Origin: Lysobacteraceae bacterium SCN 69-320
GTDB lineage: Bacteria > Pseudomonadota > Gammaproteobacteria > Xanthomonadales > Rhodanobacteraceae
Reading direction: 5' to 3'
Length of the DNA stretch: 64,000 nt
Assembly: GCA_001725155.1 (NCBI GenBank)
Contig: MEFP01000005.1
Coordinates: forward strand, 124,001 to 188,000
Part shown: positions 43,659 through 61,098 of the stretch, in pieces
How the letters are laid out: the number at the start of each line of letters is the position of its first letter
Position numbering within the stretch: position 1 is the stretch's first letter
Made by a program: the position numbers and the translations under genes
The notes under the pieces: generated by a model
The model's database searches: none
What the model was told of the DNA's origin: nothing
The model's input: the letters and a program-made list of their open reading frames with translations, nothing else

Positions 43659-46088
43659 ATGCAATCCATGGATCTGGCAGCGGCGCCACGGCCGAACGAT
43701 GACGTTCGCCTGATCAGCCTCAGTGCGCGGCCCGCGCTGCCGACACGCGTACGCAGTGTGCTCGAAGGCGTGCTGGCCCTGACCGGCGGCCTGGTCGAGC
43801 GCTGGATTTCGCTGAGCCTCAACGAACACGAGCAGCAGCTGTTCAAGCTCGCCGAGAAGGCCCGCAGCAGCAACGAGCAGCACGCCGTGTTCGAGTCATT
43901 GCGCGAGGTCAAGCGCGGCCGCGCCGACGTCGCGCCGCGCTTCATGCTGTTCCTCGAATCGGCGCTGGCCGGGCTCGACGCAAAACCCGCCACTCCCGCT
44001 TCGCCCAGGCGCTTCCAGGAGCTGGCCCTGGTCGAAACCCGCGATCTCGAAGAATCCATCGCGCTGCAGGAGATGACGGCCAAGGCCGAGATCCGCCACA
44101 GCCAGGCGCTGTACGCGCTGGGCCACCGCTTCGGCGTACTGGCCGGCGCGCCGGCGCTGGACGCCGAAAGCCTGCCGCTGGGTCCGCAGCGCCTCGGCGC
44201 GGCGCTGCGCTACGCGACGGCCTGCCTGAGCCTGACCATCGAGCATCGCCTGCTGCTGTATCGCCAGTTCGACCGCCTCGGCATGGCCGAAGCCGGCGTG
44301 CTGTTCGGCGCGGTCAACGACTATCTCGCCGAAAAACGCATCCTGCGCCATCTGCAGACCGCGCCGCGCTACGGCGCGCCGGCACCGACTTCGGCACCGG
44401 CGACAGCCGCCGCGGCCGACGATGCCGGCAGGGCATCGCCGCCGAACGACGCCGACACGACGGCAACGGCGACCGCTGCCGCGGCAGACGCCGCCGCCGT
44501 GCAGACGCCGGCCATGGCGGCATCCGCTGCAACCGGCGGCGGCGCCGGTGACGACCCGCGCGACGCCGAACTGTTCGACACCTTGCGCGAACTGCTGGCC
44601 GGCCGGCGCAATGGGGCGCCGGCAACGACCGGCAGCAGCGCCGTCCTGTCGGACTATGTCGCGACCGGCGAGGATCTGCAGGCCGTGCTCGGCAGCCTGC
44701 AGAGCCGCCCGGCCACACCGCTCGTGCTCGGCGGGCGCGTGGTCCAGCGCAGCGTCGCGCACCTGCGGCAGGATCTGCTGAACCAGTTGCGCCAGTTCAC
44801 GCCGGACGGACGGCCGCCGCGGCTCAGCGAGGTCGACGCCGACACGCTCGACCTCGTCGGCATGCTGTTCGATTTCATCGCCAGGGACATGCGGCCGACC
44901 AGCGCGACCCAGGCGCTGATGACCAAGCTGCAGGTGCCGGTGCTGCGCGTCGCGCTGCGCGACAAGAATTTCTTCACCCGGCGCAACCATCCGGCGCGCC
45001 AGCTGCTCAACGCCGTGGCCGAGACCGGCCAGTACTGGATCGACGACAGCGACGGCGATGCCGATCGCATGCTGGTCGAGAAGATGCAGCTCGTCGTCGA
45101 TCGCGTCGGCAGCGAGTTCGACGGCCGCGAAGAACTGTTCGACGAGCTGCTGACCGACCTGAGCCGGCACATGGGCACCCTGGCGCGCAAGGCCGAAGTC
45201 GCCGAGCGCCGCCACATCGATGCGGCCAAGGGGCGCGAACGTCTCGAGGTCGCGCGCGAGGGCGCGGTGCAGGCCGTCAGCGGACGGCTGCACGAGCGCA
45301 AGGTGCCCCGTCTCGTACGCGCGCTGCTGGAACAGGCCTGGACCGACGTGCTCGCGCTGACCATCCTGCGTCAGGGCGAGGATTCGGACGCTTATCGGCG
45401 CCGGCTCGCCGTGGTCGATCGTCTCGTCGCCGGCACTGCCACCGACGACGCCGAGCTGCGCGGCGAGATCGAACAGGGGCTAGGCCAGGTCGGTTTCCAC
45501 GGCGACGACGTGCAGAGCATGCTGCTGCAGCTCCTCGACGGCGGCGAGGCGAACAAGGACGACAGCACCGCCAGCCGCACCGAACTCGCGCTCAAGCTCA
45601 AGAACAAGGCCCGCCTCGGCGAGGAATCGTCGCCCGCCGAACCGGTCCGCGCACCGGCGACGCTTGCGGCGGCAGCGCCGCCCGGGTCCGCTGCGCCCAC
45701 CGCCACGGCACCTGCATCCGTGGCCGCAACACCCGCGTCCGCTCCGGCCGGTCCGCCGGCGCTGAACGCCGAGGAACGGCAGACTCTCGAACGCCTGAAG
45801 ACCTTGCCCTACGGCACCTGGTTCGAGTTCGTCGTCAACCAGCAGGGCGACACGGTGCGGCGCAAGCTGTCCTGGTTCTCGACCCTGACCGGCCGCTGCC
45901 TGTTCGTGAACCAGCGCGGCGCGCGCACCGACGAGCGCAGCCTGCAGCAACTGGCCCGCGACATCGCGCGCGGGCAGGCGCATATCGTCGTCGAGCGGCA
46001 CGACTCGCTGATCGACCGCGCCTGGTCGGCCATCGTCGGCACCTTGCGCCAGTTCTCCGGCAAGCCCGCGCCCCAGCCTGCCACCTGA
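43659..46088 (+). CDS. DUF1631 family protein
   Basis: An 809-residue cytoplasmic protein of the DUF1631 family (often misannotated as thymidine phosphorylase). The N-terminal part is helical (SLNEHEQQLFKLAEKARSSN) and the middle has an alanine-rich linker (about 245-300). The C-terminal region (about 700-800; YGTWFEFVVNQ, RRKLSWFSTLTGRCLFVN) is beta-rich and PilZ-like in character, so c-di-GMP signalling is possible but not shown. A PilZ gene lies 10 nt downstream. Confidence 0.85.
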   Translation: MQSMDLAAAPRPNDDVRLISLSARPALPTRVRSVLEGVLALTGGLVERWISLSLNEHEQQLFKLAEKARSSNEQHAVFESLREVKRGRADVAPRFMLFLESALAGLDAKPATPASPRRFQELALVETRDLEESIALQEMTAKAEIRHSQALYALGHRFGVLAGAPALDAESLPLGPQRLGAALRYATACLSLTIEHRLLLYRQFDRLGMAEAGVLFGAVNDYLAEKRILRHLQTAPRYGAPAPTSAPATAAAADDAGRASPPNDADTTATATAAAADAAAVQTPAMAASAATGGGAGDDPRDAELFDTLRELLAGRRNGAPATTGSSAVLSDYVATGEDLQAVLGSLQSRPATPLVLGGRVVQRSVAHLRQDLLNQLRQFTPDGRPPRLSEVDADTLDLVGMLFDFIARDMRPTSATQALMTKLQVPVLRVALRDKNFFTRRNHPARQLLNAVAETGQYWIDDSDGDADRMLVEKMQLVVDRVGSEFDGREELFDELLTDLSRHMGTLARKAEVAERRHIDAAKGRERLEVAREGAVQAVSGRLHERKVPRLVRALLEQAWTDVLALTILRQGEDSDAYRRRLAVVDRLVAGTATDDAELRGEIEQGLGQVGFHGDDVQSMLLQLLDGGEANKDDSTASRTELALKLKNKARLGEESSPAEPVRAPATLAAAAPPGSAAPTATAPASVAATPASAPAGPPALNAEERQTLERLKTLPYGTWFEFVVNQQGDTVRRKLSWFSTLTGRCLFVNQRGARTDERSLQQLARDIARGQAHIVVERHDSLIDRAWSAIVGTLRQFSGKPAPQPAT

Positions 46089-46098
46089 GGAATCCGCC

Positions 46099-46446
46099 AT
46101 GGTCGAGCACCGCCGCGCGCCGCGCCGCCGCGTCGAGGAAGTCATCCAGGTCACCAACGCGATCACCGGCGAGCCGGCCGGGCGCATCGGCAACCTGTCG
46201 ATCGACGGCATGATGCTGGTCACCGAACGACCGGCGCGCGAGAACGCGCTGTACCAGTTCGCCTTCCAGCTGCCGGACGAACGCGGCCGGCCGCAACAGG
46301 TGGAGATCGGCATGCACGAGCAGTGGACCGAGGCGGCCAGCGTGCCGGGGCAGCACTGGGTCGGCCTGCGCTTCATCGACGTGAGTGCGGAAGATCAGGC
46401 GCTGGTCAAAGGCTGGCTTGACCGGAGCCGGCACGGCCGGGGCTGA
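46099..46446 (+). CDS. PilZ-domain c-di-GMP effector
   Basis: A 115-residue single-domain protein. The RxxxR element lies in HRRAPRRR and the D/NxSxxG element is NLSIDG, the c-di-GMP-binding motifs. It is linked to the upstream DUF1631 gene and overlaps nothing. The output is unknown. A consensus-like AGGAA site lies before the ATG. Confidence 0.93.
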   Translation: MVEHRRAPRRRVEEVIQVTNAITGEPAGRIGNLSIDGMMLVTERPARENALYQFAFQLPDERGRPQQVEIGMHEQWTEAASVPGQHWVGLRFIDVSAEDQALVKGWLDRSRHGRG

Positions 46447-46453
46447 CCCGCCC

Positions 46454-47557
46454 ATGCGCCGCCTCGCCGTGTTCGCCGCGCTGGCCGTCGCGCTGCTGCT
46501 CGGCGGAGCCTGGCTGTACCGGCAACAGCAGGCGCAGATCCCGCGCCGGGCCAGTTTCGTGATCTTCGGCGGACTGACCGAGGTCGAACTGCGCGGCGTG
46601 CCCGAGCCGGCCGCCGCGGCCGCGTTCGGCGCGGTCGGCGAAACCCTGCAACGCGACCAGCGCGCCTGGCATCCCTGGGAAATGAGCGATCTGCTGCGCC
46701 TGAACGCGGCGATCGCCCAGGGCGAGTCCTACCAGACCTCCGACGAACTCGCCGGCCTGCTGCGCGCGGCGCAGCGCGCCTATGTCGGCAGCGACGGCCT
46801 GTTCAATGCGGCCGTCGGCAGCCTCGTCGATCTCTGGGGTTTTCATACCAGCGACTACCCGATCACCGCGCCGCCGCCGCCCGACGGCAACATCGCCGCG
46901 ATCCTCGCGATGCGGCCGCGCATGAGCGAACTGCGCATCGCCGACGACGGCACGGTGACATCGAGCAACCGCGCGATCCAGCTCGATCTGAACGGGCTGG
47001 CCGAAGGCTATGCGGCCGAACAGATCGCCGCCGTGCTGCACGAACGCGGCATCGCCGATGCATTGATCAATGTCGGCGGCGACGTGCTCGCGCTGGGCAG
47101 CGCCGGCGCGCGGGCCTGGCGCGTCGCGATCAGTTCACCGCAGCACCAAGCGCTGGCCGAGGTCGAACTGCAGGGCCACGAGGCGTTGTTCTCGTCGGGC
47201 AACTACAACAAGTTCCGCGAAGTCGAAGGCCGGCGCTGGGGCCATGTGCTCGATCCGCGCACCGGTCGCCCGGCCCGCGGCACTGCCGCGGTCAGCGTGA
47301 TCCATGGCGACGCGGTCGTCGCCGACGTGGCGTCGACCACCCTGATGATTGCCGGCCCGACGGATCTCGTGCGCATCGCGCGCCGGCTTGGCGTGGCCTG
47401 CGTCGTGCTCGTCGCCGACGACGGCGCGATCTGGATCACCCCGGCCATGCAGCGCCGGCTGCGCTTCACGACAGCGCCGGCGCGACTGAGCGTGACCGAA
47501 GACATCGGCAACGACTGCAGCAGCGCGGCGCCGGTGGCCGCGCCGGCACCTCAGTAA
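46454..47557 (+). CDS. apbE: FAD:protein FMN transferase (ApbE family), membrane-anchored
   Basis: A 367-residue enzyme that covalently attaches FMN to a threonine of target proteins. An N-terminal membrane helix (about 5-20) without a lipobox is followed by DLNGLAEGYAAEQIA, NVGGDVLALG, GRRWGHVLDPRTGRPA and DVASTTLMI, the substrate and metal-binding segments. The target flavoprotein (NQR or RNF type) is not in this window. It overlaps the convergent outer-membrane gene by 7 nt. Confidence 0.92.
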   Translation: MRRLAVFAALAVALLLGGAWLYRQQQAQIPRRASFVIFGGLTEVELRGVPEPAAAAAFGAVGETLQRDQRAWHPWEMSDLLRLNAAIAQGESYQTSDELAGLLRAAQRAYVGSDGLFNAAVGSLVDLWGFHTSDYPITAPPPPDGNIAAILAMRPRMSELRIADDGTVTSSNRAIQLDLNGLAEGYAAEQIAAVLHERGIADALINVGGDVLALGSAGARAWRVAISSPQHQALAEVELQGHEALFSSGNYNKFREVEGRRWGHVLDPRTGRPARGTAAVSVIHGDAVVADVASTTLMIAGPTDLVRIARRLGVACVVLVADDGAIWITPAMQRRLRFTTAPARLSVTEDIGNDCSSAAPVAAPAPQ

Positions 47558-48369
47558 CGCAGCTTCACGAACGCCGACGGTCCGCTCAGGCGCACGTTCA
47601 GCACACCGTCGAAACTGCGCTTGTCGGCTTCCACGCGGATGCGTTGCGCGCCGTATTCAAACCCGACGCCGAGGTTGCGCCAGGGGAAGAATTCCAGGCC
47701 CAGCGACAGGTTGTAGATGTGCCCCGTCAGCGAGCCGTTGTTCTTTCGCACGCCGGCCACGTCGGCGTAGATGCGTGCCGAATCGCCGAGCGCATGACGC
47801 CAGCCGAGTTCGATCAGCGGCGCCCAGGCCGACGCGCTTTCGTGCAGATCCAGCAGCTGCACGCTGCCGTTGAGCGAGCCCTGGCCGGTGACGTTGCCGG
47901 CGACGCGGTAGTACCCGCCGCCCAACCCGAGTCCCCACACATCGCGGTCACCGACCGGCAGCCACCAGCGCCAGGCCACGCTCGCAAAATCCATGTCGAG
48001 CTTGCCGCGCACGTCGGCGTCGACCTCGAACGTGCTGCCGTCGTAGACGATGGAGCGGTCCAGCGTCTTGCGTGCGCTGCGGTGGAAGCGGTAGCCGTCG
48101 ACCTCGATGCCCTGGCTGTCGCCGACAAGGAAGCCGAAACGCAGCCGGCCGACGACGCGATCCTTGGTCAGGCCGAAATCGTCCTCGAAGTTCACGTCGC
48201 TGCCGACCACGCCGTTGCCGCCGTCGATGCGCGCATCGGCATTGCTGTCGGCCTGATAGGCACCGGCGGATATATAGATGCGGTCGAGGGCGAGCGGCTT
48301 CTCGGCCCAGGCGGCCGGTGCGAGCACGGCGAGCAGCGCGGCCGGCAGTAGGCGTTTTGTCGTTGTCAT
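47551..48369 (-). CDS. Outer-membrane beta-barrel protein
   Basis: A 272-residue protein with a signal peptide ending near AWA. Alternating amphipathic strands and a C-terminal aromatic residue (KLRY) are typical of 8- to 12-stranded barrels, for example YISAGAYQADSNAD, GYRFHRSARKT and GVGFEYGAQRIRVEAD. The function is unknown. Its start is the ATG at 48369; the longer frame begins in non-signal sequence. Confidence 0.8.
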   Translation of the reverse strand: MTTTKRLLPAALLAVLAPAAWAEKPLALDRIYISAGAYQADSNADARIDGGNGVVGSDVNFEDDFGLTKDRVVGRLRFGFLVGDSQGIEVDGYRFHRSARKTLDRSIVYDGSTFEVDADVRGKLDMDFASVAWRWWLPVGDRDVWGLGLGGGYYRVAGNVTGQGSLNGSVQLLDLHESASAWAPLIELGWRHALGDSARIYADVAGVRKNNGSLTGHIYNLSLGLEFFPWRNLGVGFEYGAQRIRVEADKRSFDGVLNVRLSGPSAFVKLRY

Positions 48370-48472
48370 TTCCGTACGTTCCTGATCAGCGTGAGCACAG
48401 GCCGACCTGCGGCCGGCGGCATTCTGACATGCCCGTGCCGGCGCCGCGTCCCGCGGCAGCACATCGCCGGCA

Positions 48473-49213
48473 TCATGGCTTGCGCAGGCGTCGAAGACGC
48501 GTGAACTCGGAAAACTCCCATTGGCGCAGCGCCAGCATCAGGCTGAAGCCGTCGCGCTCGGCCAGCGGCAGGCGCGCGTCCTGGCGTGCGAGTTCGTCGA
48601 ATTCCTGCGCGAGCCGTCCGAGCGCGGCCTTCATGCGCGTGCGCGAGCCCAGCGAGAGCATGCCGCTCAGAAAACGCAGTTCGTCGCCGATGCCGTCGAA
48701 GGCGCCGCGCAGGAATTCGCCGGCCACGCGAGCCAGGAAGAACTCGTGCACCGGCCCGTCCTTGCGCCAGGCGAAGTTGCGCGCGGTCAGCTTCTTGACC
48801 CGGCGCGGCGGCCGATAGTCGACGATGCCCAGTTCGTCCAGCTTCAGCAGCGCACTGACCAGGCGCGCCTCGTCGAACGCGTAGGTCGTCATGATCTCGG
48901 CGAGCTTCCACTCGTTGACGAGCAGGTAGGTCAGCAGGAGCAGCTGCGGATCGCGCACGAGCGCGCGCTCCTGCGCCTCGCTGAGCTCATGCAGCGCACC
49001 GGTTGCCTGGCCGCCGTCGACGAGATCGGACAGGCTCAGGTCCAGCACTTCGCAGATGCGGTCGAGCCGGCCCAGCGAGAAATCGCCGCGGCTCAGGTCG
49101 CGCTTGATCGTCGGCTCGCTCAAGCCCAGCAGCTCGGCCAGCTGGCGATAGGTCATGCCGCGCTGGCGCAGCACATGACGGATGTTGCGCACGAGGGTCT
49201 GGCCCGCACTCAT
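48473..49213 (-). CDS. XRE-family transcriptional regulator with C-terminal extension
   Basis: A 246-residue regulator with an XRE-type helix-turn-helix at about residues 20-65 and a long helical C-terminal domain (about 85-240) of the kind used for ligand sensing or dimerisation. It is divergent from the condensing-enzyme cluster at 49346, with 132 nt between the two starts, so it probably controls that cluster (inference from position). Confidence 0.85.
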   Translation of the reverse strand: MSAGQTLVRNIRHVLRQRGMTYRQLAELLGLSEPTIKRDLSRGDFSLGRLDRICEVLDLSLSDLVDGGQATGALHELSEAQERALVRDPQLLLLTYLLVNEWKLAEIMTTYAFDEARLVSALLKLDELGIVDYRPPRRVKKLTARNFAWRKDGPVHEFFLARVAGEFLRGAFDGIGDELRFLSGMLSLGSRTRMKAALGRLAQEFDELARQDARLPLAERDGFSLMLALRQWEFSEFTRLRRLRKP

Positions 49214-49345
49214 GGCCCGTTCCGGTATCAGAATCCGATACCGCATCAGACAACAGGGATAAGCCCGCGCGCAAGAATTTGCGCCGGCGCCCGGCGCTGC
49301 GGCAGTCTCTGCGCGCCACTCAGTCACTGCGCAAGGATCGGCCGC

Positions 49346-50398
49346 ATGAGCGTCATGGCGTCTTCCCTCGCGGCGCGGCCGACCGCCGTGCCGGCCGGCC
49401 TGCGGCCGTTGCGACTGCTCGGCAGCGGCGTGGCCGGAGCGCTGGAGGCGCTGCCGAGCAGCGCGATCGACGCGCGCCTGGGCCTGCCGGCCGGCAGCGT
49501 GGAGAAACGCAGCGGCGTGCGCGTGCGCGGCGTGGAAACCCGGCGCAGCGCCGCCGAACTCGGCGCCGCAGCGGCCCGCGAGGCGCTGGCCGCCGCCGCG
49601 CTGGAGCTGGCCGACGTCGATCTGCTGATGGCCGCGAGCGCGACCATGGACCAGGCCATGCCCTGCAATGCCGCGCTGATCCACCACGAGCTCGGCCCGG
49701 CCGCACGGGGCCTGCCGGCCTTCGACGTCGGCGCGAGCTGCCTGGGCTTCCTCGTCGCGCTGGACACGGCCGCCGCACTGATCGCCGCAGGACGCTACCG
49801 CCGCGTGCTGATCGTCGCTTCGGACATCGCGTCCTGCGGACTGGACTGGAGCCATCTCGAAGCCAGCGCGATCTTCGGCGACGGCGCCGCCGCATTCATC
49901 GTCGACGGCGGGAATTGCGCCACGACCGTGCCGGCGGGCCTGCTCGCCGCCGCGTTCGCGACCTACAGCGAAGGCGCGCATTTCTGCGAGATCCGCGGCG
50001 GCGGCTCGCGCTACCACCCCAGCCGCATCGACGAACCGTTCGCGCCGCTGGCCCGCTTCCGCATGGACGGCCAGGCCGTGTTCCGCCTGGCCGCACGCCA
50101 TCTCGGCGACTTCATCGACGCGCTGCTGGCCCGCGCCGGACTGCAACGCGGCGCGATCGACCTGGTCGTGCCCCATCAGGCCAGCCGGCACGGCCTGGAT
50201 TTCCTGCGGCGCCTGCTGCGCCTGCCGGCCGCGCGGATCGTCGACATCTTCGCCACCCACGGCAACCAGGTCGCCGCCTCGCTGCCGAGCGCGCTGCATG
50301 CAGCGCACGCCGGCGGACGCCTGCAGGCCGGCATGAACGTGCTGCTGATCGGCACCGGTGCCGGCGTCAGCCTGGGCGGCCTGGTGTTGCGGAGCTGA
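49346..50398 (+). CDS. KAS III-like (FabH/OleA-type) condensing enzyme
   Basis: A 350-residue thiolase-fold enzyme. The catalytic triad is complete: Cys132 (VGASCLGF), His277 (VPHQAS) and Asn307 (THGN). It would form a carbon-carbon bond between acyl thioesters to give a beta-keto product. It is not the housekeeping fabH, because it stands alone in a cluster with hydrolase, reductase and glycosyltransferases and no other fatty-acid genes. The ATG at 49346 follows AAGGA; a second ATG lies three codons later. FabH versus OleA specificity cannot be decided from sequence. Confidence 0.88.
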   Translation: MSVMASSLAARPTAVPAGLRPLRLLGSGVAGALEALPSSAIDARLGLPAGSVEKRSGVRVRGVETRRSAAELGAAAAREALAAAALELADVDLLMAASATMDQAMPCNAALIHHELGPAARGLPAFDVGASCLGFLVALDTAAALIAAGRYRRVLIVASDIASCGLDWSHLEASAIFGDGAAAFIVDGGNCATTVPAGLLAAAFATYSEGAHFCEIRGGGSRYHPSRIDEPFAPLARFRMDGQAVFRLAARHLGDFIDALLARAGLQRGAIDLVVPHQASRHGLDFLRRLLRLPAARIVDIFATHGNQVAASLPSALHAAHAGGRLQAGMNVLLIGTGAGVSLGGLVLRS

Positions 50399-50401
50399 GC
50401 G

Positions 50402-51271
50402 ATGACGGGAACCGCGCCGCGCATCGAAGTGCATCTGCTGCAGGTCGGCCAGTGCCGCCACCCCGAGTGGGTCACCCTGCGCGGCGGACGCTGGTCGGCG
50501 GCGGAATTTCCGGCGCTGAGCGCGCTGCTGATCCATCCCACGCGCGGCGCGCTGCTCTACGACACGGGCTATGCGACCCATTTCGACGCGGCGACCGCGC
50601 GCTTTCCGGAACGCCTGTACCGCTGGATCACGCCGGTACAGCTGGCGCCGGCGCAGACCCTGCAGCACCAGCTTGCCGCGCGCGGCATCGCGCTCGGCGA
50701 CGTGAGCCGCGTGCTGATCTCGCATCTGCATGCGGACCATGTCGCCGGTCTGCGCGATCTGCCGAATGCGCGCTTCAGCGCGCTGCGCGCCGAGATCGCC
50801 GGACTGGCCGGCCTGTCGCGCCTGCGCGGATTGACCCAGGCGATATTGCCGGCGCTGCTGCCGGCGGATTTCGCCGCCCGGCTGGACTGTGCCGACGATG
50901 CACAGGGCATCGCGCTCGGACCGTTGTGGGCGCCGTTCGACCACGGCTACGACCTGCTCGGTGACCGCAGCCTGATCGGCGTGCCGCTGCCGGGCCACAG
51001 CCGCGCGCAGATGGGCGTGCTGCTGCGCGACCGCGACGACCGGCCGCTGCTGCTCGCCGCCGACGCCTGCTGGTCGGCGCGTGCCTGGCGCGAGCAGCGC
51101 ATGCCGTCGCTGCTGGCGCGGCCGCTGATGCACAACTGGCACGCCTATCGCGCGACCCTGGCCGGCCTGCAGGCGGTTGCGCTGCGCCAGCCCGAACTGC
51201 TGATCGTGCCGTCGCATTGCGCCGAAACCTTGCGGGCCTATGCACGATCCACGGCGAGGGCGGCCGCATGA
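50402..51271 (+). CDS. Metallo-beta-lactamase-fold hydrolase
   Basis: A 289-residue protein with HLHADH (108-113), VPLPGHSRAQMGV and AADACW, the zinc-binding residues of the MBL fold. It begins 4 nt after the condensing-enzyme gene and overlaps the next by 4 nt. Possible roles in the pathway are thioester or lactone hydrolysis. It shows no signal peptide. Confidence 0.9.
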   Translation: MTGTAPRIEVHLLQVGQCRHPEWVTLRGGRWSAAEFPALSALLIHPTRGALLYDTGYATHFDAATARFPERLYRWITPVQLAPAQTLQHQLAARGIALGDVSRVLISHLHADHVAGLRDLPNARFSALRAEIAGLAGLSRLRGLTQAILPALLPADFAARLDCADDAQGIALGPLWAPFDHGYDLLGDRSLIGVPLPGHSRAQMGVLLRDRDDRPLLLAADACWSARAWREQRMPSLLARPLMHNWHAYRATLAGLQAVALRQPELLIVPSHCAETLRAYARSTARAAA

Positions 51272-52221
51272 AGCGCATCCTGCTGACCGGCGCATCGGGC
51301 TTCATCGGCACGGCCCTGCTCGAACGCTTCGCCGGCCGCGCCGATCTGCACTGGCACGGCCTGGGCCGGCGCGCATTGGCGCAGGCGAACTACAGCGCGA
51401 TCGATCTGTCTCGTCCGTTCGATCTGGATTTCCGCGCCGACGTCGTCATCCATGCGGCCGCGCGCTCCTCGCCCTGGGGCACGCGCGCCGACTACGAACG
51501 CCACAACGTGACCGCGACGCGCGAGCTGCTGGACTGGTGCCGCCGCAACGGCCTGCCGCGCGTGGTCTACGTGTCGTCGAGTTCGGTGTTCTACCGCGAC
51601 CACGATCAGTTCGGCCTGACCGAGGACAGCCCGACAGGCCCGGCCTTCGTCAACGACTACGCCGCGACCAAGTATGCCGGCGAACGACTCGTCGCCGGTT
51701 ACGAAGGCGCCTGGGTCATCGCCCGGCCGCGCGCGGTGTTCGGGCCCGGCGACACGGTTCTGTTTCCGCGCATCCTGCGCGCCGCGCGGCGCGGCCGCCT
51801 GCCGCTGATCGACACCGGCGGCGCACCGGCCGTCGGCGATCTGATCTACATCGAGACTCTGTGCGACTACCTGCTCGCGCTGGCTCTGCGCGACGACCTC
51901 GGCGGCAGCTACAACCTGACCAACAACGAGCCGGTCGCGATCCAGGATTTCCTGCTGACCGCGTTCGCGAAGCTCGGCCTGCCGCGGCCGCGGCGGCGCG
52001 TCTCGCTGCGCGTCGCGCGCGCGGCGGCGACGGCCGGCGAATGGCTCTACCGGCTGCTGCATCTGCCCGGCGAGCCGCCGATCACACGCTTCGGCGTCGG
52101 CGTGTTCACCCAGTCCAAGACCTTCGACGTGGCCCGCGCGCTGCGCGATCTCGGTCCGCCCTCGGTATCGCTGGCCGAGGGGGTGGACCGCTTCGTCGCC
52201 TGGCAGCGCGAACAATGCTGA
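51268..52221 (+). CDS. NAD-dependent epimerase/dehydratase (OleD-like extended SDR)
   Basis: A 317-residue Rossmann protein. TGASGFIG (residues 7-14) binds NAD(P). YVSSSSVFY and the DYAATKYAGE YxxxK motif complete the catalytic site. The C-terminal PPITRFGVGVFTQSKTFDV stretch resembles 3-beta-hydroxysteroid-dehydrogenase/OleD types that reduce beta-keto acids. It starts with ATG at 51268 overlapping the MBL stop (ATGA). Confidence 0.88.
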   Translation: MKRILLTGASGFIGTALLERFAGRADLHWHGLGRRALAQANYSAIDLSRPFDLDFRADVVIHAAARSSPWGTRADYERHNVTATRELLDWCRRNGLPRVVYVSSSSVFYRDHDQFGLTEDSPTGPAFVNDYAATKYAGERLVAGYEGAWVIARPRAVFGPGDTVLFPRILRAARRGRLPLIDTGGAPAVGDLIYIETLCDYLLALALRDDLGGSYNLTNNEPVAIQDFLLTAFAKLGLPRPRRRVSLRVARAAATAGEWLYRLLHLPGEPPITRFGVGVFTQSKTFDVARALRDLGPPSVSLAEGVDRFVAWQREQC

Positions 52222-53354
52222 GCCTCGCGCTCGCGCTGTGCCTGGCCTATGCAGCGCTGCTGCTGGTCAAGATCGTGCTGGCGCTGCGCCGCGGCGCGGC
52301 GCCGGACGGCACGGCCATCGCGCCGGTCACGACCGTGCTGCAAGCGATACTCGGCGGCGATCCGGCGCTGGCCGCCGTGCTCGAACGCAATCTGCTCGCA
52401 CTGCCGCAGTGCCGCTTCCTGTGGCTGCTCGACACGGACGATGCGATCGGCCGCGAGGTCGCGCAGCGGCTGCGCGAGCGGCATGCGACGCTCGCCATCG
52501 AATGCCTGGTTCTGCCACCGGCGCCGGCCGGACACAATCCGAAGATGCACAAGCTCGCCCTCGCCGCTTCCCAGGTGGCCACGCCGCATCTGGTCGTGCT
52601 CGACGACGATACCGAGCTGCCGGCGGCGAGCCTGGCCGCGCTGCTGGCCGCGCTGGACGAAGCCGATCTCGCGACCGGCCTGCCCTGCTATCTCGACGAC
52701 GGCCGCTTCGCCTCGCGCCTGCTGGCCCAGTTCGTGAACAACAACGCCGTGCTGACCTACCTGCCGCTGCTGAATTTCTGGCCGCCGCCGAGCATCAACG
52801 GCATGGGCTATGCGCTGCGCCTGGACGCGCTCGCGCGCATGGGCGGCTTCGCGCCGCTGACCCGGCAACTGACCGACGACCTCGCCGTCGCAACGCAGTT
52901 GCAGCGCTGCGGCGGCCGCATCCGGCAGAGCACGGCGCCGCTGTTCGTACGCACGAGCGTGCGCGACCTGCGCCACTACGCGCAGCTGCTGCATCGCTGG
53001 TTCCTGTTCGCGCTGCTGCTGATGCAATGCCAGACGCCCATGCTGCGCGCGAGCATCGTGCTGCTGCACGGCCTGCCGCCGCTGCTGCTCTGGGCCGCGC
53101 TGATCGCCGCCGTATGCGCCACGCAGCCGGCGGCGCCGATCGCGCTTGCCGCGTTGCTGCTGCTGCGCAGTCTCGGCCTGCGCCTCGTGCAGCGGCATTT
53201 CACCGGCGCGCCGCGGCATGCCCTCGTGCCGTCGCTCGCGGCCGAACTCCTGCAGCCGCTGCATGCGCTGCACGCACTGCTGCAGCGGCGCATCCGCTGG
53301 CGCACGCGGCACTACCGTGTGCGTGCGAACGACGACTTCGAGCCGGTGCAATGA
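52215..53354 (+). CDS. GT21-like (ceramide glucosyltransferase-type) membrane glycosyltransferase
   Basis: A 379-residue membrane protein. A helix (about 3-23) precedes the GT domain with NPKMHKL, DDDT (130-133), GMGYALRLDAL and TDD (220-222), then several C-terminal membrane helices (about 255-320) and RIRWRTRHYRV, the counterpart of the R/QxxRW region of ceramide glucosyltransferases and HpnI. A lipid acceptor and membrane location follow from this. It overlaps the previous gene by 7 nt and the next by 4 nt. Confidence 0.85.
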   Translation: MLSLALALCLAYAALLLVKIVLALRRGAAPDGTAIAPVTTVLQAILGGDPALAAVLERNLLALPQCRFLWLLDTDDAIGREVAQRLRERHATLAIECLVLPPAPAGHNPKMHKLALAASQVATPHLVVLDDDTELPAASLAALLAALDEADLATGLPCYLDDGRFASRLLAQFVNNNAVLTYLPLLNFWPPPSINGMGYALRLDALARMGGFAPLTRQLTDDLAVATQLQRCGGRIRQSTAPLFVRTSVRDLRHYAQLLHRWFLFALLLMQCQTPMLRASIVLLHGLPPLLLWAALIAAVCATQPAAPIALAALLLLRSLGLRLVQRHFTGAPRHALVPSLAAELLQPLHALHALLQRRIRWRTRHYRVRANDDFEPVQ

Positions 53355-53908
53355 ACCCGCGCTGGCAGGTCGCGTTCCTGACGGGCCAGAGCGATCCGCT
53401 GCGCTGCGCCCTGAGTCCGCTGCAGCAGCGCTTCATCGACGCACTCGCCGCGCCGCTGGCCGTGCCGCACAACTTCCCGTACGACCCGGCCACAGCGGCG
53501 TTCCGCGCCACGCCGCTGTGGCGCGCGAGCATCGCGAACGCGCGGCAATACCTGGGCTCGCGCGGACTGGCATTCCGCCGCCGCCATCGTCCGGCCGTCG
53601 AAGCGCTGCTCGCACGACGCGAGCGCAGTCTGCTGCTGGCCGGCAGCTGCGGCCTCGAACTGCTGGTCAACCTGCATCTGCCGCGCGACCTGCTCGATCG
53701 CGTCGCCGTGTTCGCGTACGGGCCGGTCGCACGCCGGCGCCCCGACTGCGACTGCCTGTTGCTGCAGGGCCATGACGATCGGCTGTCGCGCTGGTATTTC
53801 CCGCAGGTCGACGTGCGCGTCAGCGCAGGGCACATGGACTATCTCGCCCAGTCCAGCGTGCTGCAGCACTGCCGCGGCTATCTCGCCGCGCGGCAGACGC
53901 CGGCATGA
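53351..53908 (+). CDS. Orphan protein with alpha/beta-hydrolase-like triad
   Basis: A 185-residue protein with no recognised family. The pattern AGSCG (Ser99) looks like a nucleophile elbow, HDD (141-143) lies in loop position and GHMDYL (His161) sits near the C-terminus, as expected for a short alpha/beta hydrolase. Start and stop overlap both neighbours by 4 nt, so it is translated as part of the cluster. The enzymatic role is inferred from the triad only. Confidence 0.65.
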   Translation: MNPRWQVAFLTGQSDPLRCALSPLQQRFIDALAAPLAVPHNFPYDPATAAFRATPLWRASIANARQYLGSRGLAFRRRHRPAVEALLARRERSLLLAGSCGLELLVNLHLPRDLLDRVAVFAYGPVARRRPDCDCLLLQGHDDRLSRWYFPQVDVRVSAGHMDYLAQSSVLQHCRGYLAARQTPA

Positions 53909-55143
53909 AGCGTGTCGCCCTCGTCGCACCGCCGTTCAGCGGCCACCTGCATCCGCTGCTCGGCATCGGCCGTGCGCTGGCCGGCATCGCCGAGGTCCGC
54001 GTCTTCAGCAGCGCCGCCGCACAGGGCGCGATCGCCGGCGCGGGCCTGGGTGGAACGACCTTGCTGGCCGGCGCAGACGCCGCCATCGCCGCGATCGCGA
54101 ATCCGCCGCGGCGCGCCGGCAGCAATCCGCTGCGCCTGCATGCGCAGCTGCGCGCGAATCTCGCGCTGATGCAGCGCTTCCGCGCCGAGCTTTGCGCAGT
54201 ACTGGACAGTTGGACGCCGCAGCTGCTGATCGCCGACTTCACCGTGCCGGTCGCCGGCAGCGTCGCACGCGCATTGCAGATCCCGTGGTGGACCAGCCTG
54301 CCCTCGCCCTGCGTGCTCGAAGCGCCTGGCGGGCCGCCGGCCTATCTCGGTGGCTGGCGACCGCGCAGCGGCGCATACGGCCGGCTGCGCGACGCACTCG
54401 GACGGCTCGCGATCCGCGCGTTCAAGCGCGGCATCGGCCGGCTCTACCGGCGCGAACTCGCCGCACTCGGCATCGCCTCGCTGTACCGCGCCGACGGCAG
54501 CGAGGCGGCCTATTCCGACGAACGCATACTCGCGCTGGGCCTGCGCGAGTTCGAATACGCGCGCGCCTGGCCGACTGCACTGGAGTTCACCGGCCCCGTA
54601 CTCTACACGCCGCCCTACGCCGGTCCGGCGCCGACCTTCCGCGGCGGCAAATCGCGGGTGCTCGTGACGCTCGGCACGCACCTGCACTGGCACAAGCAGG
54701 CCGCGCTCGCGGCCGTGCACACGGCCGCGCAGTCCCTGCCCGATGTCGACTTCCATTTCAGCCGCGGCGAGGCGAACGGCATGCAGCAGCAACGCCGCGG
54801 CAACGTCGAGGAACTGGACTACGTGTCGTATGCGCGCGATCTGCCGCACTACGACCTCGTCGTGCATCACGGCGGCGCCGGCATTCTCTATCGCTGCCTG
54901 CAGCTCGGCATCCCGTCGCTGGTGCTGCCGCTGGACTACGACCAGTTCGACCACGCCGCGCGCCTGCACAGCGCCGGCCTCGCAAGGCGCCTGACGTCGC
55001 TGGACCGGCTGGCGCCGGCCGTCGCCGCCGCGCTGAACGACACGGCGCTGCGCGAGCGTTGCCTGGCCTGGTGCGCACGGTTCGCGGGACCGCCGGCGGA
55101 AGCGCGCATCGCTGCGGCCGTGGCCGAGCGCCTGTACGGCTGA
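53905..55143 (+). CDS. GT1-like nucleotide-sugar-dependent glycosyltransferase
   Basis: A 412-residue GT-B enzyme. The N-terminal GHLHP has the catalytic-type His14, and the C-terminal domain has VLVTLGTH and HHGGAGI (321-327) with the LPLDYDQFDHA sugar-binding stretch, as in MGT/UGT natural-product and glycolipid transferases. It is the last gene of the six-gene cluster. The convergent lysR gene follows 13 nt later. Confidence 0.88.
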   Translation: MKRVALVAPPFSGHLHPLLGIGRALAGIAEVRVFSSAAAQGAIAGAGLGGTTLLAGADAAIAAIANPPRRAGSNPLRLHAQLRANLALMQRFRAELCAVLDSWTPQLLIADFTVPVAGSVARALQIPWWTSLPSPCVLEAPGGPPAYLGGWRPRSGAYGRLRDALGRLAIRAFKRGIGRLYRRELAALGIASLYRADGSEAAYSDERILALGLREFEYARAWPTALEFTGPVLYTPPYAGPAPTFRGGKSRVLVTLGTHLHWHKQAALAAVHTAAQSLPDVDFHFSRGEANGMQQQRRGNVEELDYVSYARDLPHYDLVVHHGGAGILYRCLQLGIPSLVLPLDYDQFDHAARLHSAGLARRLTSLDRLAPAVAAALNDTALRERCLAWCARFAGPPAEARIAAAVAERLYG

Positions 55144-55156
55144 GCGCCGGGTCGGC

Positions 55157-56053
55157 TCAGGCCTGCGCGCCCGTGTAGGCGAGCAGGCCCTGCGCCAGCG
55201 CGTCGAACGTCACGCGACAGCGCGCGCTGTGGCGCAGATCCTCGTGCATGGCCAGCCAGACCGGCAGCGGGACCGCGAACTGTTCGGGCAGCACGCGCAC
55301 CAGCCGCGCATCGCGCGCGGCGATGGCCGCCTGGCAGATGCCGATGCCGGCGCCGGCGCGGATCAGTGCGAGCTGGGCCAGATCGCTGTCGGCGCGCAGC
55401 GCGAACGCGGCCCGGTCCCAGACCGGCAGCCACTGCCGCGCGGCGCGCAGGAACGGCGTTTCCTCGTCGTAGCCGATCAGCGCGTGCGCGCGCAGCTCGG
55501 CAGTGCTCTGTGGCATGCCGCGGCGCTGCAGATAGTCGGCATGCGCATAGAGGCCGAGTTCGACGTCGCCGATGCGGCGCGCGACCAGTTGCTCCTGCCG
55601 CGGCTGGGTCATGCGCACGGCGATGTCGGCCTCGCGCTGCAGCAGGTCCTGCACGCGATTGCTCAGCACGAGCTCGATCGCCAGCCGCGGCTGCTCCGCC
55701 CGCAGCCGCGCCAGCAGTGGCGGCAGCACTTCGGTGCCCACGATTTCGCTGGCCGAGACACGCACCGCGCCGGCGACGCCGGAGCCCGCGCCGGCAGCGG
55801 CGCGCCGCAATGCGGAGGCATGGCTGCGCATGGCCTCGGCGTGGCGGCGCAGTTCCAACGCGGCATCCGTCGGCAGCAGCCCGCTCGGCGAGCGTGTGAA
55901 CAGAACCAGGCCCAGCGTTTTTTCCAGCGCGGCGACATGCCGGCCGACCGTGGGCTGAGCCAGACCCAGCGCCCGCGCCGCCGCGGACAGCGAAGCGTGC
56001 TCAAGCACGCCGAGAAAGGTCCGGTAGTGTTCCCAGTCGTCCGCGTCAGCCAT
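55157..56053 (-). CDS. LysR-family transcriptional regulator
   Basis: A 298-residue regulator. The winged helix-turn-helix (about 12-60; LSAAARALGLAQPTVGRHVAALE) and the substrate-binding domain (about 90-290) are typical. It is divergent from the gene at 56145. The ATG at 56053 has no ribosome-binding sequence, and the likely -10 lies only 7 nt upstream, so the mRNA may be leaderless. Confidence 0.93.
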   Translation of the reverse strand: MADADDWEHYRTFLGVLEHASLSAAARALGLAQPTVGRHVAALEKTLGLVLFTRSPSGLLPTDAALELRRHAEAMRSHASALRRAAAGAGSGVAGAVRVSASEIVGTEVLPPLLARLRAEQPRLAIELVLSNRVQDLLQREADIAVRMTQPRQEQLVARRIGDVELGLYAHADYLQRRGMPQSTAELRAHALIGYDEETPFLRAARQWLPVWDRAAFALRADSDLAQLALIRAGAGIGICQAAIAARDARLVRVLPEQFAVPLPVWLAMHEDLRHSARCRVTFDALAQGLLAYTGAQA

Positions 56054-56060
56054 GCAAAAA

Positions 56061-56101
56061 CGTATAGCCGCTACGAAATCCTTGTCAATTTATTCGTAGC
56101 G
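56061..56101 (-). promoter_or_regulatory. lysR promoter with overlapping operator palindrome
   Basis: On the minus strand, TTGACA (56083-56088) and TATACG (56061-56066) are 16 bases apart. A palindrome, CGCTACGAA (56069-56077) with TTCGTAGCG (56093-56101), exactly 9 bp per arm with a 15-base spacer, spans the -35. LysR regulators bind such sites and often repress their own gene. Confidence 0.7.
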
Positions 56102-56144
56102 ACCGGCAGCGCAGCATGGACTCACCAACCTTGCGGAGACGGAC

Positions 56145-57131
56145 ATGAACACGACGAAGACGGCCCTGGTGCTCGGCGCAACCGGCGGCATCGGCGGCGA
56201 AACCGCCCGCCAGCTGCGCGCGGCCGGCTGGCGCGTGCGGGCCCTGGCCCGCCGCGCTGCAGAAGGCGAAGGCCTGGAATGGGTACGCGGCGATGCGATG
56301 AACCGCAGCGACGTCGCCCGTGCCGCCGCCGGCTGCGCGGTCATCGTGCATGCGGTGAATCCGCCGGGCTATCGGCGCTGGGCCGAGCTCGTGCTGCCCA
56401 TGCTCGACAACACCATCGCGGCCGCCCTCGCCGAGCAGGCCACCATCGTGCTGCCCGGCACCGTCTACAACTACGGTCCCGACGCCTTTCCGCTGATCGC
56501 CGAAGACGCGCCGCAGAACCCGCGCACGCGCAAGGGGCGCATCCGCGTCGCGCTGGAGCAGCGGCTGCAGGCCGCCACCGGCCGAGGCTGCCGCGTGCTC
56601 ATCGTGCGCGCCGGCGATTTCTTCGGCCCGCGCGCCGGCAACAGTTGGTTCGCCCAGGGCCTGGTCAAGCCCGGCCGGCCGGTCGCGCGGATCGCATTGC
56701 CGGGACGCGGCGTGGGCCATCAATGGTCGTATCTGCCCGACGTGGCGCGGACCCTGGTCGCGCTGCTGGAACGGCGCGGCGAGTTGCAGCCTTTTGAAAA
56801 TTTCCACATGGCCGGCCACTGGGATGCCGACGGCGAACAGATGGCCGCGGCGATCCGCCGCGCCGTCCTGCGCCGCGGCGGCGCGAAGCCGTCCACCGCG
56901 CCGTTTCCGTGGTGGCTGGTAACGCTGGCTTCGCCGTTCGTCGCGACCCTGCGCGAGCTGCGCGAAATGCGCTACCTCTGGCGCCAGCCCGTACGCATGA
57001 GCAATGCGCGTCTGATCGGGATACTGGGCGCCGAGCCGCATACGCCGCTGGATGAAGCGGTCGAAGCCACCCTGGATGGGCTCGGCTGCTTCGCCGACAG
57101 CACGGCAGCGGTCGGTCCGATGCTGCGCTGA
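56145..57131 (+). CDS. NAD(P)-binding epimerase/reductase
   Basis: A 328-residue extended SDR-type protein. LVLGATGGIGGETA is the nucleotide-binding motif. GTVYNYGPD with a following RxxxE-like region resembles sugar epimerases or flavonoid/isomerase-type reductases (NAD-dependent epimerase family). The C-terminus includes a long hydrophobic/amphipathic segment (PFPWWLVTLASPFVATL). GGAGA lies before the ATG. It is the likely LysR target. Confidence 0.85.
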   Translation: MNTTKTALVLGATGGIGGETARQLRAAGWRVRALARRAAEGEGLEWVRGDAMNRSDVARAAAGCAVIVHAVNPPGYRRWAELVLPMLDNTIAAALAEQATIVLPGTVYNYGPDAFPLIAEDAPQNPRTRKGRIRVALEQRLQAATGRGCRVLIVRAGDFFGPRAGNSWFAQGLVKPGRPVARIALPGRGVGHQWSYLPDVARTLVALLERRGELQPFENFHMAGHWDADGEQMAAAIRRAVLRRGGAKPSTAPFPWWLVTLASPFVATLRELREMRYLWRQPVRMSNARLIGILGAEPHTPLDEAVEATLDGLGCFADSTAAVGPMLR

Positions 57132-57627
57132 GCCGCTAAGGCTGCCGTCGCATGGCCCGCCCCCGCGGCGGGCTGCGGCCGATCGTGTACTTCATGCGGT
57201 GCTCGGCAATGACACGTGCCGACCTCGCGCAGCGGCTCAGTCCGGTTTCGGCCGCCGCCATCCGCCGAAACATCGCAGGCGGCCCGCAAACGAACGTGCG
57301 ATCGGATGCAAAGGCCCCGAAGGCGCAAGCGCCCCGGGGCCGCCGGATCGGTCACAGGACTTGTTCATCCCATCGGCGTTACGGATCTCCTGTCCGCCGC
57401 ATGCCTGCATCTTCACCAGCCGAAGAAGCTTGCCGGCATCGACCTGCGGCGCACATCGGGGAAATCCCTCGCGGCAGCTCGGATTGTCGCGACGGCCCAT
57501 CCGTCTGGCGCAGTAGGTAATTTCTTCCTGCGCCCCGGCGGCCAACCTTCGACACTTCAATGAAGCACAACAGTCATGCTAGTTTCAGAAGACTGCCTTG
57601 CAACAACCAACCCCCAGGGGAACCGTA
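57132..57627. other. Intergenic stretch with repeat copy A and a G/C hairpin
   Basis: No gene is supported in about 490 nt. It holds a strong stem, GGCCCCG with CGGGGCC, near 57313-57341, directly followed by dispersed repeat copy A (57342-57422). The following 200 nt contain nothing that I recognise. The secreted-protein gene begins at 57628 after AGGGGAA. Confidence 0.6.
57342..57422. repeat. Dispersed structured repeat, copy A
   Basis: An 81-nt block aligns without gaps to 62258-62338, with 64 of 81 positions identical by hand count. The core hairpin (57382-57386 with 57392-57396, loop CTCCT) is kept in the other copy by paired base changes. The block is non-coding and its function is unknown. 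Confidence 0.75.
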
Positions 57628-58386
57628 ATGAAATTTGCACTGAAGCTGCTGGCCACCGCCGTGCTGACCGTTACCGCCACCGGTGCCGGCGCTGCGCAGA
57701 ACGAACCGAGCGCCGCTCCGATGGCCTTCGGTGGACACATCACCGTCGGCGCCCCGCGCGGCGCCGACCCGGTCGTCTATGACGCCACCGGCACCTCGCT
57801 CACGATCACCACCGGCACGCCGCGCACCTACATCGGCGGTGTCGCCAACATCGCCGGCGCGGGCCCGCAGGTCGACATCTCCAGCGTCGACCTCTCCCTG
57901 GCCTCGGCCGCCGCGGTGAGTTACACCAACATCCGCGCGCGCATCCAGTTCTGGGACGTCTATACCGCTGCCGGCACACCGGTGTTCTCCAGCCCGGCCG
58001 GCGCGACGATCGAAGCCGACCTCGGTCCGCAGACGCTCGCCGCGAACAACGTCTATACGATCACCCTGAACCTGCCGACGCCGCTGCGCCTGAACAGCCT
58101 GGCCGCCAAGGGCTTCGGCGTGAACTTCCAGGGCGACACCGGTGCCGGCCTCGTCGACGATACGAACCTGACCACCGCGCTGACCTACGGCTCGGCGCAG
58201 CCCGTCGGCACCAGCGCCCTCGGCGGCGGCAACGGCTTCTTCCGCAATGCCTCGGGCCGCACCGATTTCAACTTCCTGTCGACGGACGCGCGCACCTTCA
58301 CCGGTATCACCGACGCACGCACGATGCTCGTGATCCGCGGCAACGCCACCGTGCCGGTCTCGCTGCAGTCGTTCAACGTCGAATAA
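57628..58386 (+). CDS. Secreted hypothetical protein
   Basis: A 252-residue exported protein. The signal peptide (MKFALKLLATAVLTVTATGAGA) ends near AAQNE. The mature chain is beta-rich, Gly/Ala/Thr rich and has no cysteine (TGTPRTYIGGVANIAGAG, NVYTITLNLPTPLRL). I do not recognise the family. It has its own terminator just downstream. Confidence 0.75.
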   Translation: MKFALKLLATAVLTVTATGAGAAQNEPSAAPMAFGGHITVGAPRGADPVVYDATGTSLTITTGTPRTYIGGVANIAGAGPQVDISSVDLSLASAAAVSYTNIRARIQFWDVYTAAGTPVFSSPAGATIEADLGPQTLAANNVYTITLNLPTPLRLNSLAAKGFGVNFQGDTGAGLVDDTNLTTALTYGSAQPVGTSALGGGNGFFRNASGRTDFNFLSTDARTFTGITDARTMLVIRGNATVPVSLQSFNVE

Positions 58387-58412
58387 CGCGTTTCCCGCCA
58401 TCGGCGAATCGG

Positions 58413-58442
58413 ACACCCGGCCCAGGCCGGGTGTTTTTTTTT
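58413..58442 (+). terminator. Rho-independent terminator of the secreted-protein gene
   Basis: ACACCCGGC (58413-58421) pairs with GCCGGGTGT (58426-58434) around a four-base loop, followed by a run of eight or more T. It begins 27 nt after the stop codon. Confidence 0.95.
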
Positions 58443-58808
58443 GCGCCCGAAAAAGACCGCGACGGCTTCGGGTCCGGTCCGGCAACACGCACCTTCCGTC
58501 ATTCGCCGCGGCGACAGATCTGACCCGACCACCACCACGCGAAAGCTGTCCGCGGACGAAAGCACCGGCGACATTGGCGCGTCTGCACCGGCGACGGCAA
58601 TTCGCCTGATGAATTGCCGTCATGTGCTTAGAAGCCGCGCGGCCCGCCGATGACCGCGACGATGTCGTGCAGGCGTGGAATTCTGCCGCTCGCAGCACCC
58701 CGCAGGTCAGCGCCGGCGAGGACATTTCGCCAACCCGTGCTTAACCGATGAATAACCGCCGGCTTCCAACAATCGGCCGGCAGCACACGGCTGCGTCCGG
58801 AGACCGCC
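58443..58808. other. Intergenic stretch with a perfect 11-bp inverted repeat
   Basis: About 365 nt follow the terminator without a supported gene. GACGGCAATTC (58593-58603) and its exact reverse complement (58611-58621) flank a 7-base loop and lack a T tract. No promoter hexamers convince me. The cysteine dioxygenase-like gene starts at 58809. Confidence 0.55.
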
Positions 58809-59438: not shown

Positions 59439-59602
59439 CAGCGTCCGGCACGAACGCCGTCGCGCGGAACGAGGGTCGCTGCCGCCGGACGCGCGAGGCC
59501 GTCCGATGCGGCGTTGCGCGACGCGTGCGCGCGAGAAGCGAATGCACCGGCGGACTGCCGGCAGCGCGGATCATGCCGCCATCCGGCGGAGTCCGGCGGT
59601 CT

Positions 59603-60343: not shown

Positions 60344-60732
60344 GGATCACCCCCGGTCTGCGCGGACAGAAACTGCCGGCAGGGCACGATGCCTCTCAGC
60401 AACCGGCCGATTTCCGGCCGTTCATGCGGCTCCACGGCGCACCGTGATCGTGTGATCCAACCCGGCGGGGAAACCGCCTTCGTGACCGCGTTGCTGGCAC
60501 GAAACACCGCCGCGGCCACCGGCAGCGACCCAGCGACGGCACGCCGCGATCAACTGCCGGCGAGCTGGCGGCGCCAGCCGATGCGCCGGCAGGCCCCGCG
60601 CGAGGTCGGGAGTTCCGGTTCGATGCGCGCGGCCGGCTGTGCGGATCCCTATGCCGGTCAGCCAACAGCGGCGTGGGAGTTCCGATGCCGTGAGCGCAGG
60701 TATAAGCCCGCCCCTCACCGGAAGATGGACCG
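60344..60732. other. Intergenic stretch without a supported gene
   Basis: About 390 nt between divergent genes. I see a TATAAG at about 60697-60702 that could be a -10 for the DUF2511-type gene, and no matching -35. No repeat or RNA that I recognise was seen. Confidence 0.45.
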
Positions 60733-61056: not shown

Positions 61057-61070
61057 ACCTCGCGGCCGAA

Positions 61071-61098
61071 CGAACCGCCGGTCGGCGGTTCGATTCTT
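61071..61098 (+). terminator. Hairpin terminator after the DUF2511-like gene
   Basis: CGAACCGCC (61071-61079) pairs with GGCGGTTCG (61084-61092) around a short loop, followed by ATTCTT. It is modest but well placed, 14 nt after the stop. Confidence 0.6.

Follow-up and report, generated by a model that had tools for sequence, protein, structure and literature searches.

What might a compact operon make that sets a fatty-acid-type condensing enzyme beside two glycosyltransferases, and which known systems does it belong with? The question is raised by a locus in the gammaproteobacterium Lysobacteraceae bacterium SCN 69-320 (assembly GCA_001725155.1). We analysed 64,000 nucleotides of contig MEFP01000005.1 (positions 124,001 to 188,000, forward strand; hereafter the window, whose own numbering is used), which hold six same-strand genes for a beta-ketoacyl-ACP (acyl carrier protein) synthase III-like enzyme (KAS), a metallo-beta-lactamase-fold hydrolase (MBL), a short-chain dehydrogenase/reductase (SDR), two glycosyltransferases of the GT21 and GT1 types, and a protein that we call ORF5 (for open reading frame 5). 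Judged by sequence, this operon is the sugar-decorating branch of a recurring, unnamed gene cassette that is uncharacterised as far as we searched.

A compact six-gene operon

The six genes are as follows, with the basis of each assignment in brackets.

49346-50398, plus strand: KAS III-like condensing enzyme, 350 amino acids (Pfam, NCBIfam and PDB sequence matches, residues)
50402-51271, plus strand: MBL-fold hydrolase of lactonase type, 289 amino acids (Pfam, AlphaFold2 model, fold matches)
51268-52221, plus strand: extended SDR, a reductase resembling OleD and 3beta-hydroxysteroid dehydrogenase, 317 amino acids (Pfam, NCBIfam)
52215-53354, plus strand: GT21 glycosyltransferase resembling ceramide glucosyltransferase and HpnI, 379 amino acids (Pfam, NCBIfam, PDB sequence matches)
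53351-53908, plus strand: ORF5, possible small alpha/beta-hydrolase, 185 amino acids (invariant residues, weak AlphaFold2 model)
53905-55143, plus strand: GT1/GT28-type (GT-B) glycosyltransferase, 412 amino acids (Pfam, NCBIfam, PDB sequence match)

Between KAS and MBL there are 3 bases; at the next four junctions the genes overlap, by 4, 7, 4 and 4 bases. Pfam scores exceeded the gathering threshold for ACP_syn_III and its C-terminal domain, Lactamase_B, Epimerase, Glyco_transf_21 and EryCIII-like_C. An earlier description of this DNA from its letters alone (the sequence-only reading) had reported six tightly spaced genes, with KAS III-like, MBL-fold, GT21-like and GT1-like products, divergent from an XRE regulator, and on all these points our analysis agrees with it.

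The operon is a variant of a widespread cassette

The sequence-only reading had also presented the six genes as an uncharacterised cluster. They are not isolated but a variant of a KAS-SDR-MBL cassette found in several phyla. A scan of genome contigs by MBL alignment, a sample biased towards the MBL query, yielded at least 41 loci, 30 of them with a long MBL match; the 11 with short matches (L046-L056) were left out of the 30-locus counts, all of which are counts among the matches listed. The combination of KAS, an OleD-like SDR and a lactonase-fold MBL recurs across Pseudomonadota, Bacillota, Bacteroidota and Chloroflexota. Near the full-length MBL of the 30 loci, an SDR was found in 29, KAS in 27, an adenylate-forming gene (called by a tblastn match at 1e-6) in 26, an ATP-grasp gene in 13 and a Rieske protein in 7. 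Three of the adenylate-forming proteins were compared with the cut-off of TIGR02304 ('F390 synthetase-related'), which those of L041 and L024 pass and that of L014 does not. GT21, ORF5 and GT1 accompany the core in one of the 30 loci, L024, where the order is KAS-MBL-adenylate-forming gene-SDR-GT21-ORF5-GT1; this locus comes from a metagenome bin labelled Verrucomicrobia, a label that may be wrong.

Core trees relate the window's KAS, SDR and MBL to those of the cassette with TIGR02304. In a tree of the three proteins with 43 rows, the five rows with the sugar arm form one clade (SH-aLRT 100; also 100/100), and in a mixture-model tree of 29 rows the window, L008, L009, L010, L118, L119 and L024 form a clade supported at 100/100, within which the placement of L024 is open. 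Some deep joins of the core tree are weak or join long branches. The cassette is also carried by L036, a contig labelled Campylobacter jejuni, which sits on a long branch and may be mislabelled. By descent, the window operon would be a sugar-headgroup branch of the KAS-SDR-MBL(-TIGR02304) cassette without the usual adenylating enzyme.

The complete order KAS-MBL-SDR-GT21-ORF5-GT1, for which the sequence-only reading had proposed a genome search, was recovered in five other genomes from two families: three of the window's genus (G065, G103 and G036) and two of another family of the same order. The G065 locus is broken within KAS and continues on a second contig, and its GT1 gene runs off the contig, as does that of G103 after ~38 residues; in G036, GT21 lies in two frames (L010:8688-9850), which may reflect a sequencing error or a true lesion. 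Against the readable parts of G065, the window's KAS, MBL and SDR are 91.3%, 91.0% and 90.5% identical. When ORF5 was used as a one-protein query, it was found in 4 of 197 sampled genomes of the family, all in the window's genus, within which the cluster is patchy (ORF5 in 4 of 8 genomes). Other draws gave 1 of 369, 1 of 398 and 3 of 230 genomes; all five draws overlap and include the window's genome. A search of plasmids with ORF5 returned none, viral contigs searched with KAS held no relative, and a phage search by DNA returned none.

The sequence-only reading had noted the lack of an AMP-ligase. For the operon this holds, and a TIGR02304 search of the genome also came back without a match, but the cassette at large usually includes such an enzyme. 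None of the six genomes with the six-gene order, the window's included, gave a TIGR02304 match at E 1e-5, and neither did any of the 8 genomes of the window's genus; absence is less sure in G103 (87 percent complete) and G065 (680 contigs). TIGR02304 scored over its cut-off in 5 of 194 family genomes, in all five within a KAS-SDR-MBL-adenylate-forming cluster (L076-L080), and in L077, L078 and L080 a related XRE gene lies beside KAS. L077-L080 nevertheless fall in another part of the tree than the window branch. Common descent of the window branch with these four, a group defined with the first tree already known, was rejected by an approximately unbiased test under LG+G4 (p 6.5e-5). A single loss of the ligase in the sugar-arm branch appears likely, and no more than likely, because the placement of L024 inside the clade is open.

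Lipid-tailoring genes lie near some related cassettes

Ten of the 30 loci, including two from which queries had been taken, were matched by six lipid-tailoring queries (PAP2 and sulfotransferase, two each; fatty-acid hydroxylase and desaturase, one each): hydroxylase in 7, PAP2 in 6, desaturase in 4 and sulfotransferase in 4. PAP2, hydroxylase and desaturase genes follow the cassette in Providencia, Erwinia, Pectobacterium, one Pseudomonas locus and an E. coli record, hydroxylase and sulfotransferase genes lie near it in three Bacteroidota loci, and in a Legionella locus a PAP2_C protein adjoins it. Such variable neighbours would fit a membrane lipid core with variable decoration, the decoration being sugars in the window's variant.

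In the E. coli record (L057:6185-13066), a cassette of the KAS-SDR-MBL-TIGR02304 type lies with the PAP2, fatty-acid hydroxylase and desaturase genes between narI and purU, and it was matched by 672 of 5426 complete E. coli genomes, in 671 of them over at least 80 percent. On the Pseudomonas megaplasmids pBASL58 (L061) and pMPPla107 (L059), cassette genes are scattered among small open reading frames, or the F390-related gene stands alone in the stretch shown.

The glycosyltransferases and ORF5

The window's GT21 scored 109.8 bits in Pfam (gathering score 21.7). Its best NCBIfam match was HpnI (86 bits, cut-off 310), and its sequence matches in the PDB at E values up to 1 were to ceramide glucosyltransferase only (1.1e-6). 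Ceramide glucosyltransferase and HpnI both act on membrane lipids. Of the GT21 motifs, which we take to be D1, D2, D3 and (Q/R)XXRW, the conserved Asp stretches are present, and LLHRW stands in the place of the last motif. GT1 is similar to macrolide and rhamnosyl transferases in NCBIfam and the PDB, with a rhamnosyltransferase as its best PDB sequence match.

For ORF5, neither Pfam nor NCBIfam gave a match at E 0.1, and sequence searches of the PDB gave none below E 0.31, in keeping with the orphan status that it had been given before. Its description as hydrolase-like leans on three residues that are invariant in all five sequences (S99, D143 and H161) and on a weak AlphaFold2 model (predicted local distance difference test score, pLDDT, 59; predicted TM-score, pTM, 0.61), whose best fold matches were cutinases. 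ORF5 may be a small alpha/beta-hydrolase in which S99, D143 and H161 would have catalytic-type roles.

The condensing enzyme lacks the OleA glutamate

For the tree and the residue counts, 39 of 44 loci had a readable KAS; L118 and L119 were outside those counts. The triad Cys132/His277/Asn307, described as intact by the sequence-only reading, is confirmed by residue alignment and is conserved throughout (Cys132 in 38 of 38 rows, one row being gapped; His277 and Asn307 in 39 of 39). The column of OleA Glu117 differs: it holds Met105 in the window and, over the 38 readable rows (the 39th is gapped), M in 6, I in 19, L in 13 and E in none. By contrast, the window genome's own OleA has E in this column. 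In PDB sequence searches, KAS scored 185 bits with MxnB, 178 with CorB and 144 with the best FabH-type entry, and ~58 bits with 5vxf and 3fk5, which we take to be OleA structures. Its best NCBIfam match was PRK07204, a beta-ketoacyl-ACP synthase III model (324.1 bits, under the cut-off of 402).

OleA and PpyS use a glutamate from the partner subunit as base, and MxnB and CorB have Val at that position (PMC4578411, PMC7064751); PpyS Glu105 is given as equivalent to OleA Glu117 (PMC4578411), and the glutamate is present in all but two of the OleA proteins considered (PMC7064751). MxnB and CorB form alpha-pyrones (PMC5724707, PMC4578411), MxnB by condensing two carrier-bound beta-keto chains (PMC5724707). 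Because the glutamate is replaced by Met, Ile or Leu, head-to-head condensation by the OleA/PpyS mechanism is unlikely on sequence grounds; KAS may nevertheless join two chains in the manner of MxnB.

The same genome holds a separate oleABC-like set on another contig (C17; L074:6305-10846). Its OleA scored 461.9 bits (cut-off 285) with PRK09258, presumably the OleA model; the OleB-like hydrolase best matched haloalkane dehalogenase, under the cut-off, and the OleC-like ligase matched olefin beta-lactone synthetase at 854 bits, just under the cut-off of 900. An OleD gene to go with this set was not located.

The hydrolase and the reductase

The putative metal ligands of MBL are H108, H110, D112, H113, H199, D221 and H272. 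In five of the seven columns all 44 rows agree, and the other two are identical apart from one and three gapped rows. The residues agree with HxHxDH, H, D, H, which we take to be the metal-ligand pattern of acyl-homoserine lactone (AHL) lactonases. The AlphaFold2 model (pLDDT 93.4) had AHL lactonases and 4-pyridoxolactonase as its top PDB fold matches, with methyl parathion hydrolases lower, and the NCBIfam score for the AttM family was 72.5 bits, under the cut-off of 390. A PqsE-like thioesterase role was considered and set aside, there being no PqsE among the best 50 fold matches.

The SDR keeps Tyr131 and Lys135 in 43 of 43 rows. The OleD-like label of the sequence-only reading applies loosely: OleD is the best NCBIfam match, but at 161.4 bits it lies far below the cut-off of 580.

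Proposed product and its alternatives

On balance, we expect the operon to make a glycosylated lipid from fatty-acid precursors, namely a hydroxy lipid with one or two sugars. The data show the gene content and order, the conserved catalytic residues, the kinship of the core and the lack of a TIGR02304 match in the genome, from which we infer every substrate, the reaction order, what ORF5 and MBL do and what is finally made. KAS would condense two acyl thioesters in a Claisen reaction like that of FabH or MxnB; because the operon has no ACP gene, it would have to borrow ACP or coenzyme A (CoA) thioesters. The SDR would reduce the resulting 3-keto group to a hydroxyl, and the lactonase-fold MBL would free or open the acyl product. 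At the membrane, GT21 would then attach a first sugar to the hydroxyl of the lipid; a second would come from GT1, and ORF5, as a small esterase-type hydrolase, would trim or transfer an acyl group. The glycosylated beta-hydroxy lipid of the sequence-only reading is still the best guess, but not its option of OleA/PpyS-type head-to-head joining.

Several points weigh against this proposal. Without a ligase, the pathway may be shorter than in the relatives or may use an unlinked enzyme, and the lactonase fold modelled for MBL would not be explained by simple thioester release. ORF5 had no fold match at E<=0.001. The likeness of GT1 to macrolide and rhamnosyl transferases could indicate that the product is secreted and not a lipid of the membrane, and 20 of the 30 related loci, among the matches listed, had no match to any of the six tailoring queries. 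Literature searches gave no product, substrate or phenotype for any member of the cassette.

An unlikely alternative is a secreted glycosylated pyrone or lactone, a signal or antibiotic made in the style of MxnB, with MBL as a lactonase that opens or detoxifies the product. MxnB and CorB are the best-scoring solved relatives of KAS, and the lactonase fold, the macrolide/rhamnosyl type of GT1 and the patchy distribution (4 of 8 genomes of the genus) would all suit such a molecule. However, Pfam finds no polyketide synthase (PKS), ACP or transporter among the six genes, GT21 is a lipid-type family, and lipid-tailoring genes lie near the core in 10 of the 30 related loci (among the matches listed).

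We consider it quite unlikely that the operon follows an Ole-like route, in which a head-to-head 2-alkyl-3-hydroxy acid would be lactonised in trans by the genome's OleC-like ligase and glycosylated later. The OleD match of the SDR, the OleA, OleB-like and OleC-like genes on C17 and the lactonase fold of MBL speak for it, but all 38 readable rows have M, I or L where the genome's own OleA has E, and the SDR falls far under the OleD cut-off (161 against 580). The sequence-only reading was thus right that this is no OleABCD olefin pathway; direct assignment to that pathway is ruled out by the Glu117 column, the OleD cut-off and the absence of OleB and OleC from the operon.

Very unlikely, in our view, is a ceramide-like lipid for which KAS and the SDR would make a 3-hydroxy long-chain backbone and GT21 would act as it does on ceramide. 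GT21 does match ceramide glucosyltransferase, and PAP2/PAP2_C, fatty-acid hydroxylase, desaturase and sulfotransferase genes lie near the core in some relatives; yet the window operon encodes neither an amine donor nor an N-acyltransferase (no search was made for serine palmitoyltransferase), and it lacks the TIGR02304 or ATP-grasp gene whose product could make an amide. A broader speculation, to which we give a similarly slim chance, is that the cassette as a whole is a route to ceramide-like polar lipids free of pyridoxal phosphate (PLP), with head groups swapped between lineages and the window as a nitrogen-free, doubly glycosylated version. In such a route, KAS III would make the 3-keto backbone, the SDR would reduce it and the TIGR02304 enzyme or ATP-grasp would form an amide; the head groups would be sugars added by GT21 and GT1 in the window, and the work of PAP2, hydroxylase, desaturase or sulfotransferase elsewhere, E. 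coli included.

That the genes are vestiges of a cassette degenerating after loss of its adenylating enzyme is highly improbable: none of the six six-gene genomes gave a match to TIGR02304, usual in the cassette, and G036 has GT21 in two frames, but the checked catalytic residues of KAS, MBL and SDR are intact in the window, gene order and overlaps are kept, and these three proteins retain over 90% identity to the readable parts of G065.

A glycosylated hydroxy lipid remains our preferred product. Full-text literature searches, with subscription journals largely outside them, found no description or product of the KAS-SDR-MBL-TIGR02304 cassette; PMC5467263, PMC10849742 and PMC5501837 name F390-type or adenylate-forming genes, but passages of these three, like those of PMC4578411, PMC7064751 and PMC5724707, do not describe the cassette. 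The cassette nonetheless spans several phyla and about one-eighth of complete E. coli genomes. The window branch is a compact operon, and its lipid-type glycosyltransferase offers a chemical handle for identifying the cassette product.

Regulator and genomic site

Two further features lie to the left of the operon.

48473-49213, minus strand: XRE/HTH_26 regulator, divergent from the operon (Pfam)
49224-49242, no strand: inverted repeat GGTATC-N7-GATACC, a possible operator, between regulator and operon

The XRE gene is also present in three congeners without the cluster and is therefore not exclusive to the operon. Across 194 family genomes, 20 held a total of 21 XRE matches at E<=1e-30, and a role as dedicated regulator of the operon was rejected, as only 6 of the 21 had KAS next door in 1.5-kb flanks. 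The inverted repeat occurs once in the window (mean 0.0 in 50 mononucleotide shuffles) and exactly in 7 of 30 stretches scanned, one of which, L081, is a copy of the window region. It lies beside XRE in two of the cluster-less congeners (L083 and L086) and was not found in the third (L085), in the cluster-bearing G103 (L084, L009) or in L077, L078 and L080. Because it is kept in two cluster-less congeners and was not found in G103, the repeat may serve XRE itself.

In the three cluster-less congeners, synteny stops just past XRE (window 49225-49278). In one congener, XRE is followed by tRNA-Thr and then by a gene that looks XerD-like by eye; in the window genome, that tRNA-Thr and XRE are 63 kb apart, which places the cluster in a variable stretch. 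A 57-base copy of part of tRNA-Thr is found at window 61620-61676, with the full tRNA ~51 kb further right on the contig, and open reading frames between the two look phage-tail-like by eye, which may mean a prophage at tRNA-Thr. In PHROGs, three proteins encoded right of the operon gave no match. Directly right of the operon lie a LysR regulator and a divergent SDR (55157-57131). A 79-base dispersed repeat (57342-57420 and 62258-62336, 79.7% identical) also occurs near XRE in a cluster-less congener (L104). An Rfam scan of window 46000-64000 returned nothing at gathering score.

Comparison with known systems

Like OleABCD, the window has a thiolase-superfamily condensing enzyme and an OleD-like SDR, but its operon lacks the OleA glutamate, OleB and OleC, and a separate oleABC-like set stands elsewhere in the genome. 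Glu105 of the pyrone synthase PpyS is likewise unmatched by the window's Met105. With MxnB and CorB, the best-scoring solved sequences, KAS shares a hydrophobic residue at the OleA/PpyS Glu position, a likeness known from sequence only; the window operon differs in having no PKS genes. The MBL shares fold and metal-ligand pattern with AHL lactonases (AttM, AhlX and GcL), but it falls below the AttM cut-off and sits in a biosynthetic-looking operon. GT21 joins ceramide glucosyltransferase and HpnI through its Pfam family and the PDB match to the former, while scoring far under the HpnI cut-off. A further close system is the KAS-SDR-MBL-TIGR02304 cassette, whose three core genes are homologous and mostly adjacent and within which the window is nested; the window branch differs in lacking the TIGR02304 gene, in the order KAS-MBL-SDR and in the addition of GT21-ORF5-GT1.

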